From: Thermobaculum sp. | GTDB taxonomy: Bacteria > Chloroflexota > Chloroflexia > Thermobaculales > Thermobaculaceae | Assembly (NCBI GenBank): GCA_016782125.1 | Contig: JADDPA010000161.1 | Coordinates: forward strand, 1 to 40,779 | Length of the DNA: 40,779 nt | Direction of reading: 5' to 3' | Shown: positions 10,591-16,839 of the stretch, piece by piece | Position numbering within the stretch: position 1 is the stretch's first letter | How the letters are laid out: each line of letters begins with the position of its first letter | The notes under the pieces: model-generated | The model's input: the letters and a program-made list of their open reading frames with translations, nothing else | Told to the model about the DNA's origin: nothing | The model's database searches: none | Translations under genes and position numbers: made by a program

Positions 10591-11241
10591 CTAACTTCTG
10601 GCTTGGCCTAACCCGGCCTCTCGAGCCAGCAAAACAGCTTCCGCCCGGTCCGCGACTTGGAGCTTCGCGAAGATGTTGGAGACGTGGTTGCGGACCGTCT
10701 TGAGAGTGAGTGTGAGGCGAGCGGCGATCTCCGGGTTGCTACGGCCCTGCGCGATGAGGTTCAGGATCTCCCGCTCACGCTCGGTGAGCTCCGGGAAGGC
10801 AGGTGCGGCGGACAGGGGCCGGGAGAAGAAGGCGATCAACCGCTCGGCGATAGCGGGGCTGAAGATCGCTTCACCATCGCCCGCCACCTTGACGGCGCGG
10901 ACCATGTCTGCTGCACTCGCGCCCTTGAGCACGTACCCCCGCGCGCCGGCCCTGAGCGCGGCGAATACCAGATCGTCGTCCTCGTACATCGTGACGATGA
11001 GGACGCGCGCATCGGGGTCTTCTGCGAGGATACAGCGGGTCGCCTCGATGCCGCCTGTGCCAGGCATCTGCAAATCCATAAGCACGACGGCAGGCCGCAA
11101 GTCCACAACTAGCTCGACCGCTTCCTCGCCCGTGGCCGCTTCGCCCACGACTTCTATTCCGGGCGTCGAGGCGAGCAGCGACCGCATCCCACTTCGGAAG
11201 ACGGGGTGATCATCGGCCACGAGTACTCGCAAGGTCTCCAT
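10591..11241 (-). CDS. response regulator, NarL/FixJ family
   Basis: A 216-residue regulator with an N-terminal receiver (D10-D11, phospho-acceptor D56 in LMDLQMPGTGG, K106 in YVLKGAS) and a C-terminal LuxR-type helix-turn-helix (LTEREREILNLIAQGRSNPE, then TVRNHVSNIFAKL). It starts at an ATG with AAAGGGAG upstream, 12 bases after the stop of the paired kinase, so the two form one operon. It is most probably phosphorylated by that kinase; the target genes are not apparent. Confidence 0.93.
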   Translation of the reverse strand: METLRVLVADDHPVFRSGMRSLLASTPGIEVVGEAATGEEAVELVVDLRPAVVLMDLQMPGTGGIEATRCILAEDPDARVLIVTMYEDDDLVFAALRAGARGYVLKGASAADMVRAVKVAGDGEAIFSPAIAERLIAFFSRPLSAAPAFPELTEREREILNLIAQGRSNPEIAARLTLTLKTVRNHVSNIFAKLQVADRAEAVLLAREAGLGQARS

Positions 11242-11253
11242 TCTCTGCTCCCT

Positions 11254-13392
11254 TTAGCTCGGATGATCCATGGTAGATGGCTCATCTGACGGCCCGGACA
11301 GCGGCAGTTCCGCACATACGCGCAAGCCACCAGTTGGCACCGACTCGAACACACAGCGGCCGCTCAGCTCCTCGGCGCGCTCGCGCATCGAGTGCAATCC
11401 CACGCCGGTCTTGCGCTCCCGCGGCATGCCGATACCATCATCGGTGACATCGACCACGAGTGCGTCGCCGTCGAGTGCGATCCGCACGAGGCACGTGCTC
11501 GCGCGGGCGTGTTGGACAACGTTCGCAAGCGCCTCCTGGACGATCCGGTAGGCGGCGACCTCGACGGCCGCAGGCAATGTTGGCAGGAGTTGTGGCGCAT
11601 CTACGCGCACCTGGAGGGCGTCTCGCCCGTACTGGGACACACGGGCACGTATGGCCCCGGCGAGGCCCAGCTCGTCGAGGGCAGGTGGGCGCAACGCGTA
11701 CACGAGGCGTCGCACCTCGTCCACTGCCGCCTCGGCCTCCCCACCCAGCTCGATAAGCAGTTTGTCGGCGGCATCGGGATCGCGCCTGAGCAGGTTGCGA
11801 ATTGCGCCGACCTGCAGACCGACGCCGGCTAGTACGGGACCGAGACCGTCATGCAAGTCACGGCGCAGCCTGCGCCTCTCCTCCTCACGCGTCGTCACCA
11901 ACTGCTCGCGCGAGCACTGGAGGTCAACGGTGAGACGCACTGCGTGGAGCGCCACACCGGCATTCCGGGCCAGGTCATCGAGAAGTTGCCTGTCCGCAGG
12001 CCCAAATCCCCGCTCGCCTCCGCGGGGTGCGAGCAGCAGCTCCCCTACTGGCTCTCCCTGATATAGCAGCGGTACCCGTACCGGCTCGCCTCGCGGCATC
12101 CCCCCACTGGCGACCATCGTGCTACCATCCCCGTGCCCGAGAGCTATCGCGGCATAGGGAAGCCTGAGCGCATCCTTGACTGTCTCGACGATGGTAGGCA
12201 ATACGGCATCGGGAGCGAGCGCGGCGTCCAGACGTCGCCCAAGTCGGGATAGCACACTGTACGGATCTTCCCGTTCGCCATACATCAGGTGGTTCACTCC
12301 CCGTTGCAGGCGATCCCTGAGCGGAGCAAACAGTATCGAGACGAACCCCGCACCCACCAGTGAGAGCAACAGGTTGCCCTCGGCCCGATTCAGCGCCCCT
12401 ATACCTCCCACCACCAACAAATACAGCCCAGCCACAATCGCGGTGAGCGAGCCATATACCAGTGTCCGGTTGATGACGATGTCGATGTCCCACAAGCGGT
12501 ATCGCAGGATCGCCACGCCGATGCTGAGCGGAATCAGCAAGATGAAACCGTAGATCAGGGTGCGGAGGATCGTCCAGCCCAGCGGCCCGGAGATGGTAGC
12601 CGGGACCAGGGTGGCAAGTGCGAAGGCCAAGCAGAACCCTACCAGCGCGACCGCGGAACCGAAAACCACCCACTTGGTCTGCTGACGTTGCGCCGGACTT
12701 GATGCGTACTTGTAGCGATAGATCTGGACAAACACGAGGCTGCCGATGAAGAAGGGGCCTCGGAAGAGATCGGGGGCCGAGTCCGGAAGGAAGATATTGA
12801 CGCCGAACAGTAACCCGGCCGCGGCTACGAGCCAGCGTGTCCAGGAAGGCACAAATCGTCCGTCAGGGAAAACGTAGAAGAAGGCTGCGAAGCAGAGTTG
12901 TCCAGCGAAGTCCAGCAGGTTTGCGGGCAACCGGAACTCCGCGTGTACATCAGCCAGATCGTGCATCGTGCCGGTGAAGGACGCCCCGCCAAACAAGAGG
13001 AGCACAAACGAACTGAACCGGGCAACCAGATCGTCCGAACGTCGCTGGTAGAGCACCAGTGCCACTGCCACAAACACCAGCGTAGTTACAATCGGAATCA
13101 CGACGCCGTTGTATGCAGCGTACAATCCAACGGAGAGGCCAAGCTCCCAGAGTCTTTGTGCGGCCTCGGGAGTGAGCAGGCCGTCCTGGGAACATGCCTG
13201 GGCGGCACGGGTGCAAATCGTGGCGTACCGCTCGTAGGCGTACGGGATCCCCAACAGATTGAGCCCCAGGACGATGATGGCCAGGATGATCCAGACCGAC
13301 CGAGCCAGGTGCGCTGTCCCAACGTAAGAACCGTCGGGCGAGGCGAGACGAGGAACTCCTGGCGCCCCGACCTCTCCCCGCTCGACGTTCAT
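11254..13392 (-). CDS. NarX-type membrane sensor histidine kinase
   Basis: A 712-residue kinase of the HisKA_3 class. The N-terminal 340 residues are largely hydrophobic, with about eight to nine segments such as SVWIILAIIVLGLNLLGI and WLVAAAGLLFGVNIFL, plus an extracytoplasmic loop containing two Cys (CTRAAQACSQDG). A GAF-like region (about 365-480) precedes the phospho-acceptor H514 in RRDLHDGLGP. The ATPase part has EALANVVQHARA (N box), DDGIGMP and GVGLHSMRERA. The ATG has GGGGAG nine bases upstream. A TACAAT -10 box lies at 13457-13452 but its -35 is poor. Likely partner: the NarL-type regulator downstream. Confidence 0.9.
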   Translation of the reverse strand: MNVERGEVGAPGVPRLASPDGSYVGTAHLARSVWIILAIIVLGLNLLGIPYAYERYATICTRAAQACSQDGLLTPEAAQRLWELGLSVGLYAAYNGVVIPIVTTLVFVAVALVLYQRRSDDLVARFSSFVLLLFGGASFTGTMHDLADVHAEFRLPANLLDFAGQLCFAAFFYVFPDGRFVPSWTRWLVAAAGLLFGVNIFLPDSAPDLFRGPFFIGSLVFVQIYRYKYASSPAQRQQTKWVVFGSAVALVGFCLAFALATLVPATISGPLGWTILRTLIYGFILLIPLSIGVAILRYRLWDIDIVINRTLVYGSLTAIVAGLYLLVVGGIGALNRAEGNLLLSLVGAGFVSILFAPLRDRLQRGVNHLMYGEREDPYSVLSRLGRRLDAALAPDAVLPTIVETVKDALRLPYAAIALGHGDGSTMVASGGMPRGEPVRVPLLYQGEPVGELLLAPRGGERGFGPADRQLLDDLARNAGVALHAVRLTVDLQCSREQLVTTREEERRRLRRDLHDGLGPVLAGVGLQVGAIRNLLRRDPDAADKLLIELGGEAEAAVDEVRRLVYALRPPALDELGLAGAIRARVSQYGRDALQVRVDAPQLLPTLPAAVEVAAYRIVQEALANVVQHARASTCLVRIALDGDALVVDVTDDGIGMPRERKTGVGLHSMRERAEELSGRCVFESVPTGGLRVCAELPLSGPSDEPSTMDHPS

Positions 13393-13476
13393 GCCCGGTC
13401 TCTCCCCTGGTTACCTTTTTACATTCCTCGGACCGGCAGCTACCGAGGCGTATTGTACACCTGCGCGCCCCGGCAT

Positions 13477-13860
13477 CTAACGCCGCCGCCGCCAGACGAA
13501 GCTGCCGATAACGAGGGCCGATACAGCGGCTACACCCCTGCCGACCGAAAGCGCACCGGCAGCCGTCCCGCCCGCTCCGGTGTCCGGCATGCTTGGCACC
13601 TCGCTACCCTCAGCCTCGAAGCTGTAGGTCGCGCTATTGACCTGGTCGGCGTCAATCACTTCAAAGTCCTCCGCGGTGGGGAGATCCATAGGGTCGCCCT
13701 TGTGGCTACCCCCAAACCCCTCAGAGTTCTCCAGATCGCTCACGAGAGCGGTGTCCAGGGAGTAGTGTATGGACGTACGCCGTGGCACCTCGAGTTGCAC
13801 CGTGTATGTCTTTCCCCCCTCGCATTCGCGAGTGTTCGCGGGGGTCACCTCCATACCTAG
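13477..13860 (-). pseudogene. 3' part of a split gene for a secreted, anchored protein
   Basis: This fragment encodes about 127 residues of the C-terminal portion. There is a domain with CEGGKTYTVQLEVPRR, then a Ser/Glu-rich stretch, and a cell-surface sorting-like end: MPDTG, a hydrophobic segment (about 20 residues) and the tail RRRR. It has no signal peptide of its own. Its reading frame runs without interruption into the left end of the IS701-like element. If both insertion sequences are removed it joins in phase to the 5' part at 16540-16839. An internal ATG at 13854 could yield a cytosolic remnant, but the GGAGG-like sequence needed is missing. Confidence 0.75.
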
Positions 13861-13861
13861 T
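13857..13861. repeat. target-site duplication of the IS701-like element, left copy
   Basis: CTAGT here is repeated at 15300-15304 directly outside the other inverted repeat. If only CTAG is counted, the duplication is 4 bases, as I recall for this family. Confidence 0.75.
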
Positions 13862-15299
13862 CGCTGGTTGGTCAGGTTAGGGCACGGGGACTGCTGCAGC
13901 TGTCGGCTGCAGTTAGGAGGTGTCCTATGGCTACCCCTCGCAAGTCAACAAACCCAACGGTGCAGGCGATCGACCGGTTCTGTGTACAGTTCGATGACCT
14001 GTACTGCCGGGTCTCGGAGCGGCAGGCATTCCGGCAGTACCTGATCGGGCTCTTGCTGCCGAGGGAACACAACAAGACCCTGACTGTGTTGTCCTCGCTC
14101 GTGCCCGGGGCCAACAGACAGAAGCTGCATCACTTCGTGCACGACTCGCCTTGGGACTGTGATGCCGTAAACGCGCGAAGGCTCTCCGTATGGCAACAAC
14201 ACCGGGCGCTCGGCCCTCATCCGGGCGGGGTGCTCATAGTGGACGAGACGGGGGACAGAAAGCGCGGGCACGGGATCGAGCTGGCGGCAAGCCAGTACAT
14301 CGGCAAGCTTGGCCACACGGCGAACGGCGTTGTAAGCGTAACCAGCCACTGGAGCGATGGGAGCAGGCACGTGCCGCTAGGGGTGCGCGCGTACCGCCCG
14401 AAATCTCGCCTGCCTTTGGGCCAGGCTGATCCGAGGTTCCATACCAAGCCGGAACTCGCCTGGGAGTTGATCGAGGAGGCCAGGGAAGCCGGGGTGCCGT
14501 TCCGGGTCGTGGTCGCGGACAGCGTGTATGGGGAGAGTCCGAAGCTGGAGGAGAGGCTGTACCGAGCCAAACTCAAGTACATCCTGGCGCTGCGCCCTAA
14601 TAAGGGCACGTGGCAGCTGGTGGAGGATGAGGAGCATCCCCCCGCCTTCACCCCTGCCGAGGCAGCACAGAGCGTGCCGATCCCGGACTGGCACAGGACG
14701 GTGCGCACCGACAGCCACGGCAAGGGGTTAGTGCGGTACGTGGCCGAGCTCGAGCTGGGACCGTACTATGGGCCGGACAGGCCAACGAGGCTGGTAGCCG
14801 CGACCGAGGACCCTGAGAAGCTCAAGGCCGAGAACACCTGGTACATGATGACCAACCTAAGCCCCAAAGAGGCGAGCGCACCTGAGGTGTACGAGCTGTA
14901 CAGCCTGCGCGACTGGATCGAGCACTACTACAAGCCGGTCAAGCACGAGTTGGGCTGGGCGGACTTCCAGATGAGAAAGGAGCGGGCGATAGTGCGCCAC
15001 TGGCACCTGGTGATGCTGGCGTTCACCTTCAGTTTGATCGAGGGGATCGCACCCGGCGAGGGAGAGGCAGAGCAGGAAACCAACAGGGACGATGCGGAGG
15101 GGTCGGGGGGGAAAATCAGCCCCGCGTATAGTGTGGAACGATACGCTCCGACGAGTAAGGAGCTGGCTGTGCCCCTGGGCGCGCATCACCCTCTATTGGG
15201 GCAGATGGTCCACCGCACCTCCTCCAGTTGAACTCTCCGCCTTGCTTGACCATGTCGCCCATTCCCGACCCCTCGCCGCCCCCACCTGACCAACCAGCG
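13862..15299 (+). mobile_element. IS701-like insertion sequence, complete
   Basis: A 1438-base element. The first 16 bases (CGCTGGTTGGTCAGGT, 13862-13877) are repeated exactly in inverted orientation at 15284-15299, and the repeat continues imperfectly for about ten more bases. It is flanked by CTAGT duplications and contains one intact transposase gene. A hairpin (CTGCAGC/GCTGCAG, 13894-13912) stands just before the transposase ribosome-binding site and could block translation from transcripts reading in from outside. It inserted exactly at the edge of the IS630-like element. Confidence 0.88.
13927..15231 (+). CDS. IS701-family DDE transposase
   Basis: A 434-residue transposase. The catalytic acids are visible in their usual contexts: D106 (VLIVDETGDRKRG), D198 (VVVADSVYGES) and a Glu in the segment RDWIEHYYKPVKHELGW, which resembles the YREK-like signature of this group. 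The ATG has AGGAGG six bases upstream. The reading frame is intact and both ends of the element are preserved, so it may be active. Confidence 0.88.
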   Translation: MATPRKSTNPTVQAIDRFCVQFDDLYCRVSERQAFRQYLIGLLLPREHNKTLTVLSSLVPGANRQKLHHFVHDSPWDCDAVNARRLSVWQQHRALGPHPGGVLIVDETGDRKRGHGIELAASQYIGKLGHTANGVVSVTSHWSDGSRHVPLGVRAYRPKSRLPLGQADPRFHTKPELAWELIEEAREAGVPFRVVVADSVYGESPKLEERLYRAKLKYILALRPNKGTWQLVEDEEHPPAFTPAEAAQSVPIPDWHRTVRTDSHGKGLVRYVAELELGPYYGPDRPTRLVAATEDPEKLKAENTWYMMTNLSPKEASAPEVYELYSLRDWIEHYYKPVKHELGWADFQMRKERAIVRHWHLVMLAFTFSLIEGIAPGEGEAEQETNRDDAEGSGGKISPAYSVERYAPTSKELAVPLGAHHPLLGQMVHRTSSS

Positions 15300-15304
15300 C
15301 TAGT
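15300..15304. repeat. target-site duplication of the IS701-like element, right copy
   Basis: CTAGT, identical to 13857-13861. Its TA is also the left target dinucleotide of the IS630-like element, and its last GT belongs to that element's end. Confidence 0.7.
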
Positions 15305-16518
15305 GCATAATCAAGCTGTATTTTCGGGAATGGAGAGGTGAACCTCGTGGGAGCACCCCAAGGCGGCGCACACCCTGCCGGTGAGTTCCGTGGTGCTCAG
15401 CAGCCCGTCGGGCTCGACTATCTTGCGCTTCGTATGCACCCACTTCGGCTCGATCGGATTGAGCCACGGGCTCTTCTTGGGCAGCAGGCAGGCCAGGATG
15501 CGCACGCCACTACCCTGCCCCTTGGCTCGCCGGTTGTGCTCGTCGATCCACTCTCTGACCATCTTGCTCGTATGCCGCGGCGCGTTGTCCCACACCAGCA
15601 GCAGCGCGGTCTTGCCCGATGCTTCCAGCTTCCCGCAGCACCACTCTAGATACCGGCACGTGACCTCGCTCACCGGTCGCCCGTCTACGAATCGTAGCCA
15701 TACCTCACGCTCCAGCGCCCCATCCTCGCCCCGTAAGTGCGTATACAACCCGTAGCACGCCGGCTCCTTCGGCTCCTTCGCTCCCTTTCCGCTTGTGTCC
15801 TGTCTCTTCGCGACCGGCTGCTCCACCTGCTCCTTGAGGCGTATAGGCCTGCCCTGCGGTGCCCACGCGTGCATCGAGGGCTGCTCGAAGCGGCTCCACC
15901 ACACCTCGTCCTGGAAACCCAAGACCCACTCGGGATGAGTAGTCGCAAGCCGTATCAGCCGGTCGCGCTGGCTTTTTTCCTCGCATACCCCGGGTCTGGG
16001 CTCGTGATCCACCGCTTGGCCCGCTTCCAGCCCACCCCCAAACGCTTCATTGCCTGCCGGATAGTCTCATCCGATACTCGCGACTGCGTCAATCCCTGCT
16101 CGAAGCTCACGTCCGCGGCCAACTGGAGCGTCCACACGCTCGTGTCCTTGCCGAAGTCCCTCGGGCTTTGGTGCAGCAAACTCTCGAGCGCCTCGCTGCG
16201 CTCCTCGTCGAAGGTCACCTCGATAGTCTTGCGACTGTGCGAGCCCCTGATAAGGGCTTGTGTACCACGCTCGTTGAACGCGCGGATGACGTTCCTGACG
16301 GTCTGGTCGTTGCAGCCCACAGCCACGGCGATACCTGGTGCCCGCTCTCTCCTACTACTTGCCAGCAGTATCTGACACCGACGGAGGACAAATGTATCCT
16401 TCGAGCGCAGACCCGCCTCCAAAGCCTGCCGCTCGGCGTCCGTTATGGGACGCACATATATTGGTGCTCTCATGCACCCTACAATACCTGTTACCCTACA
16501 AACCTGCTTGGCTTTCAC
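15303..16518 (-). mobile_element. IS630-like insertion sequence
   Basis: A 1216-base element bounded by TA dinucleotides (15301-15302 and 16519-16520), the usual IS630/Tc1 target duplication. The ends both begin GTG and share an imperfect inverted repeat of about 28 bases (CAAGC, TT-T, GGG and other blocks match). It encodes a transposase in two overlapping frames. It inserted first; its left boundary CTAGT was later used as target by the IS701-like element. Confidence 0.75.
15311..16473 (-). CDS. IS630-family transposase in two frames, probable -1 frameshift
   Basis: The first frame (16473 to 15955) carries the helix-turn-helix DNA-binding part (QILLASSRRERAPGIAVAVG, NDQTVRNVIRAFNERG). The second frame (16012 to 15311) carries the DDE domain: D in WVLGFQDEVWW, D in LLLVWDNAPRHTS, E in PWLNPIEPKW. 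Related proteins have both parts in one chain, and the two frames join smoothly at YARKK/SQRDRLIRL if translation slips back one base on the run of six A's at 15978-15973. The ATG at 16473 gives MRAPIYVRP. Whether this is programmed frameshifting or an inactivating indel cannot be told from one copy. Confidence 0.75.
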
Positions 16519-16539
16519 TAGCCCCTCAGCGAGCTGCTT

Positions 16540-16839
16540 CTAGTATCCCTCAGGGCCACAGAAGCCACCGATCGCCTGCACCAAGCTCTTTGGTGGCTGC
16601 ACCGGCTGCTCGGAAGTGTACAGCTCGGCCAGCTGCTTGCCCAGTTCGGCGGGGCTAAGGTCAGGGGAGTAGAAATACGTCACAGCGAAGAGCCGATCGG
16701 CTGAGTCGTCTACCGCTCCCTTGATCGTAAGCTCAAAGGTTTTCGTGACCATGTCATTCTGCTCACCGCCCGCGAGGGCTGGCACCGCAAGCACGAGTGC
16801 TAGCGCCAGCGCCAAAGAGATCGAGGCCAACGTCTTCAT
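16540..16839 (-). pseudogene. 5' part of a split gene for a secreted, anchored protein
   Basis: Ninety-nine residues from the ATG at 16839, which has AGGAGG five bases upstream. It opens with a clear signal peptide (MKTLASISLALALALVLAVP, then ALAGG as cleavage region) and continues with KTFELTIKGAV and a region ending FCGPEGY. A TAG at 16542-16540 then stops it. The frame after the TAG reads KQLAEGLG and, across the excised insertion sequences, joins MEVTPANTRECEGG of the 3' part. The cysteine before the break and the one after would fit a disulfide in one folded domain. The restored protein would have about 233 residues. The truncated form may still be secreted. Confidence 0.75.

Follow-up and report, generated by a model that had tools for sequence, protein, structure and literature searches.

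The stretch of DNA analyzed here (the window) is the 40,779-nucleotide contig JADDPA010000161.1 of Thermobaculum sp., in which a single gene for a secreted, putatively wall-anchored protein (minus strand, 16839 to 13477) is broken by two insertion sequences (ISs), one of the IS701 and one of the IS630 family, with one element sitting on the very edge of the other. This arrangement raises the questions of which element arrived first and whether the second landed on the edge of the first by coincidence or by preference. The features concerned are listed in Table 1.

Table 1. Features of the interrupted locus and its downstream neighbors (positions in the window)
Feature	Position	Strand	Remarks
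LuxR-type response regulator	10591..11241	-	same module as sensor histidine kinase
Sensor histidine kinase	11254..13392	-	directly downstream of broken gene; synteny anchor
3' part of interrupted gene	13477..13859	-	from within codon 107 through the stop codon; sorting signal of MPDTG type, hydrophobic segment, RRRR tail
CTAGT, target duplication of IS701, left copy	13857..13861	.	
IS701-family insertion sequence	13862..15299	+	1438 bp; terminal inverted repeats of 16 bp, perfect
IS701 transposase, 434 aa, open	13927..15231	+	NF033540, DDE_5, DDE_Tnp_1
CTAGT, target duplication of IS701, right copy	15300..15304	.	holds IS630 left TA (15301-15302) and first two IS630 bases
IS630-family insertion sequence	15303..16518	-	1216 bp, ends GTG...CAC, TA duplications 15301-15302 and 16519-16520
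DDE part of IS630 transposase (ORF B, 233 aa)	15311..16012	-	DDE_3; -1 frame relative to ORF A
Helix-turn-helix part of IS630 transposase (ORF A, 187 aa)	15955..16518	-	HTH_23, HTH_29
AAAAAAG (A6G) run in ORF A/B overlap	15972..15978	-	candidate frameshift site
5' part of interrupted gene	16521..16839	-	signal peptide; codons 1-106 plus the first base of codon 107

The best explanation, which we consider quite probable, is that a functional gene for a secreted, sortase-anchored surface protein was put out of action in two steps at a single host CTAG, by IS630 and then by IS701, the second landing being favored. In the sequence, IS630 sits at the TA of the host CTAG, with the TA duplicated, and since G is the first base of its ends, CTAG arises anew at both junctions. 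IS701 sits at the left IS630 junction, and its 5-bp duplication CTAGT takes one base (C) from the host, two from the duplicated TA, and two from the tip of IS630, which places it second. This second step would have been favored if, as we infer, the IS701 lineage recurrently targets the TA at IS630 boundaries.

The IS701 element is typical of its family in that its transposase passes the cut-off of NF033540 (4.3e-91; 305.9 bits versus a cut-off of 150), its terminal inverted repeat CGCTGGTTGGTCAGGT matches at 16/16 bp, and it is flanked on both sides by CTAGT, a duplication whose 5 bp agree with the 4 or 5 bp described for the family (PMC8024623). The draft genome (2.96 Mb in 220 contigs) contains it only once. 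Scans of 400 genomes of the phylum and of viral contigs with a 15-bp tip pattern gave almost only scattered single matches and no further copies, and a DNA search for the same element across 158 genomes of the class yielded nothing beyond a 172-bp fragment at 82% and two matches no longer than 33 bp.

The IS630 element, also a single copy in this genome, resembles other IS630/Tc1-mariner elements in its TA duplication, its insertion at CTAG, and its DDE_3 and helix-turn-helix domains, but differs in having its transposase in two overlapping frames (-1 shift), in its imperfect terminal repeats, and in being itself the target of another element. Its tips agree as GTG...CAC, and no ungapped repeat match was found within 12 mismatches of 28. 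On the NF033545 profile, ORF A covers positions 1-129 and ORF B positions 140-295, with 60 and 64 bits against a cut-off of 100 that is set for one whole protein. Decay was rejected as the source of the double frame, since the same -1 two-ORF layout is common to relatives at 34-60% identity in other families of the class (L028, L029, L038, and L040); the AAAAAAG run in the overlap may be a site of programmed frameshifting or of slippage during transcription. In the sister genome G002, an IS630 with the same left end also sits at CTAG (L037); this copy is degenerate and has A8 instead of A6. Judging from their sequences, both elements in the window appear capable of moving: the IS701 transposase frame is open over all 434 codons, and IS630 has the -1 pair of overlapping frames also present in its relatives, with the A6G run in the overlap.

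In annotated plasmids carrying related IS701 elements, IS630 genes directly adjoin the element, and we therefore surveyed 45 IS701 loci of the related lineage, located on plasmids of Streptomyces and Rhodococcus and in genomes of Streptomycetaceae. These loci are a non-random sample, some of them from the same plasmid, and their IS701 elements are only 40-46% identical to the transposase in the window. A side was scored as positive when an IS630-like element began precisely at the TA within the IS701 duplication and was complete, its terminal repeats being paired and both its ends bordered by TA. This was the case for 16/76 sides and 15/45 loci, compared with 1/595 when the same test was applied to the other TAs of the same flanks. 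The 15 positive loci are from Streptomyces and Rhodococcus and represent ten genomes or plasmids and about ten IS630 types; six further sides (L227, L234, L240, L284, L290, and the right side of L230) abut an IS630 transposase of which only the near end could be delimited. The IS630 tips at these junctions differ (GTGTCCTGCGCC, GTGATCCGG, GTGTCCTGAGTC, CTGAGGTTTTCG, CTGACGCTC, CTGACCTCTTCG, CTGATCTCTTCG, CTGGTCTCTTCG, CTGACTTCGGCG, and CTGAGTTTTTCG), and the pairing is thus not one composite that has been copied around. IS701 and IS630 are recurrently and exactly co-located in these loci, with IS630 first wherever the order is readable. In the IS701 subgroup whose duplication is not CTAG, all landings on an IS630 (8/8) are at a junction, and the 120 internal TAs of those eight IS630 elements are unused in the sampled loci. 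The Streptomyces flanks contain few CTAG sites (0.37 per kb). Among 41 loci of other IS701 lineages, some on the same plasmids, there was no clear case at an IS630 junction, and none of the ends seen in the nearest relatives of the window IS701 (69-70% identical) lies at an IS630.

Some of the surveyed loci are more complex. In genome G540 (contig C1, 588970-592174; L274 and L301), one IS630 has an IS701 at both of its junctions, forming an IS701-IS630-IS701 sandwich. At L273 (G647) and at L224/L230 (Rhodococcus plasmid NZ_CP050953.1), IS701 lies between two IS630 ends that meet at a TA (CAC-TA-GTG). As two IS630 ends share one TA in these cases, IS630 may insert at its own junctions too.

The co-location pattern suggests that the IS701 transposase prefers IS630 junctions as targets, and we lean toward the view that an IS701 lineage of the Actinobacteria and of the window's group is specialized for the TA junctions of IS630-family elements. 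If so, each IS630 insertion would recreate CTAG or NTAN at its ends and thereby offer safe landing sites for IS701. Shared target letters account for part of the co-location, because IS630 prefers the TA in CTAG, according to the title of Tenzen and Ohtsubo (1991) as listed in PMC2170065, and IS630 ends rebuild that site. The harmlessness of landing beside an existing IS may add to the enrichment. It is unlikely, though, that this accounts for everything, i.e., that two elements with relaxed, TA-containing targets met by coincidence and survived because insertion beside an IS is harmless. Only one copy of each element is present in the window's genome, as such a chance meeting would allow, and neutral landing pads do gather insertions; however, a distance of exactly zero recurs at the duplication TA and hardly ever at other TAs of the same flanks, the internal TAs of the same IS630 elements would have been equally neutral and yet are unused in the sampled loci, and the 41 loci of other IS701 lineages, some of them on the same plasmids, do not show the pattern.

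As for the order of events at the window locus, the original prediction was that it could simply be read from the sequence, IS630 having created the CTAGT into which IS701 then moved. The order itself holds up, given CTAGT and the 5-bp duplication of a relative, but its plain readability does not, since the host sequence after removal of both elements reads ...CATAC-CTAG-CCCC... and the insertion site was thus already CTAG. Had IS701 duplicated 4 bp, no order could be read, because both histories then give the same letters. With a 5-bp duplication, an IS701-first history is excluded, because the right-hand copy would read CTAGC, whereas CTAGT is seen. A 5-bp duplication, CGTAG, is found in the nearest relative of the window IS701 (69-70% identical), in the Streptomycetaceae draft genome G504, where it precedes the left IS701 end on contig C300 and follows the right end on contig C161. 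When the flanks were rejoined with one CGTAG, a 407-residue frame was obtained with a Pfam fatty-acid desaturase match (1.3e-11, residues 105-340) that crosses the join at about residue 314; the gene interrupted in G504 is thus one for a fatty-acid desaturase. Support for the 5-bp rule is thin, coming from one relative and two contigs of a draft genome.

The surveyed loci bear on the order as well. There, a single base reveals the order in loci with a non-CTAG duplication, and in all informative cases (8/8) the far copy of the duplication carries the IS630 tip base rather than the host base beyond IS630, indicating IS630 first; IS701 first was indicated in 0/8. The reverse history, in which IS701 entered the host CTAG with a 4-bp duplication and IS630 then homed onto the TA of the right-hand CTAG, is in accordance with the CTAG host site, with the 4-bp duplications (often CTAG) of the Streptomyces IS701 relatives, and with the IS630 preference expressed in the title cited above. 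We nevertheless regard it as improbable, given the bases read in the informative relatives and the 5-bp duplication in the nearest one, and because it leaves an extra T at the left end of IS701 unexplained, although the two CTAGT copies match perfectly and the inverted repeats are perfect without that T. We therefore consider it very likely that at the window locus IS630 came first and IS701 second.

The two-step history presupposes a formerly continuous gene, and this was examined by deleting 13860-16520 (2661 bp), which comprises both elements plus a copy of each duplication. The restored frame comprises 233 codons, from the ATG at 16839 to the stop at 13477, and contains a single in-frame TAG (16542-16540, codon 100), with the junction falling inside codon 107. 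The original prediction that the two parts share one reading phase once an IS630-like element flanked by TA and an IS701-like element flanked by CTAGT are removed is thereby borne out, as is its single TAG, which however lies 7 rather than 8 codons before the junction. An uninterrupted homologue of about 233 residues, proposed as a check, was found among 150 related genomes: the orthologue in the same-family genome G003 (L003, G003:C371:991-1689) has 233 residues and no stop, spans the junction, and is 76% identical to the broken gene over residues 1-232 (E 8.5e-113). The alignment is gap-free over 233 residues, through both the TAG and the junction, with the 5' part pairing with residues 1-107. 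Around these positions, the window reads GGA TAC TAG AAG CAG CTC GCT GAG GGG CTA GGT ATG and G003 reads GGG TAC CAG GAG CAG CTT GCC GAG GGC CTG GGT ATG, so that the TAG corresponds to CAG in the orthologue and the junction, inside the window codon CTA, is seamless. The structure predicted for the orthologue (mean pLDDT 76, core near 90) is a single beta-rich domain with strands from both sides of the break. It is thus very hard to believe that the two parts are separate genes or that the junction is an assembly artefact: the genome is a draft of 220 contigs and the TAG ends the 5' part before the junction, but an orthologue runs without gaps across that junction, the predicted single domain draws on both halves, and a chimera would not yield two exact target duplications.

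The broken gene and its orthologue differ with dN 0.16 and dS 0.83 (dN/dS about 0.19), similar to the values for the neighboring kinase and its G003 counterpart (dN 0.20, dS 0.86), which argues that the break is recent and that the divergence was mostly built up under constraint. Regarding the product, an MPDTG-type motif, a hydrophobic segment, and a basic tail were recognized by eye in the 3' part, suggesting wall anchoring, and the window's genome has three sortase (PF04203) matches above the cut-off; we do not claim membership in the curated NF058571 family (GVDTG sorting domain), against which the 3' part scores 20.4 bits, below the cut-off of 29. Compared with PDB structures, the orthologue showed weak beta-sandwich matches at best (TM-score to query <0.3), and so no function was assigned from structure.

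The histidine kinase directly 3' of the intact orthologue on G003 contig C371 is 73% identical to the kinase in the window. The broken gene is a member of a paralogous family of anchored secreted proteins of about 205-233 aa encoded beside sensor histidine kinases of roughly 710 aa, and this module was seen in the window (10591-16839, where a LuxR-type response regulator is also present), in G000 (C24, C31, C40, and C203), in G002 (C22, C28, C36, and C49), in G003 (C371 and C463), and in G006 (C129). As the module recurs several times per genome, the anchored protein may work with the kinase. A separate observation concerns JADDPP010000344.1, which was deposited as Rubrobacter sp. LC5_2 and is identical over 1731 bases to G003 contig C6 (L043, L023).

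The split gene as such is an ordinary IS-disrupted pseudogene, with one stop codon and a close intact orthologue, and it goes beyond other such cases in nothing more than the stacked order of events. The locus thus represents a clean two-step gene inactivation with a readable order. The nearest precedent for a mobile element homing onto the edge of another is that of IS4321/IS5075 (IS1111 family), which target the terminal inverted repeats of Tn21 (PMC8269217). Those elements belong to another enzyme family with another specificity, and IS5075 recognizes the repeat itself, whereas the feature shared by the junctions described here is the TA (in CTAG or NTAN), with about ten different IS630 tips being used. 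In the open-access full text searched, we found no report of IS701-IS630 junction pairing, and the papers found on the IS701 family do not mention the recurrent position at IS630 TA junctions that sets the related lineage apart; recurrent landing of IS701 on IS630 edges therefore seems to be undescribed so far.

Target choice determines where mobile elements do harm, and for an IS, homing onto the edge of another IS via the leftover TA would be a simple route to a safe site, one that would also build compound structures of the IS701-IS630 type. A testable rule follows: in genomes with both elements, this IS701 lineage should often occupy IS630 junctions.
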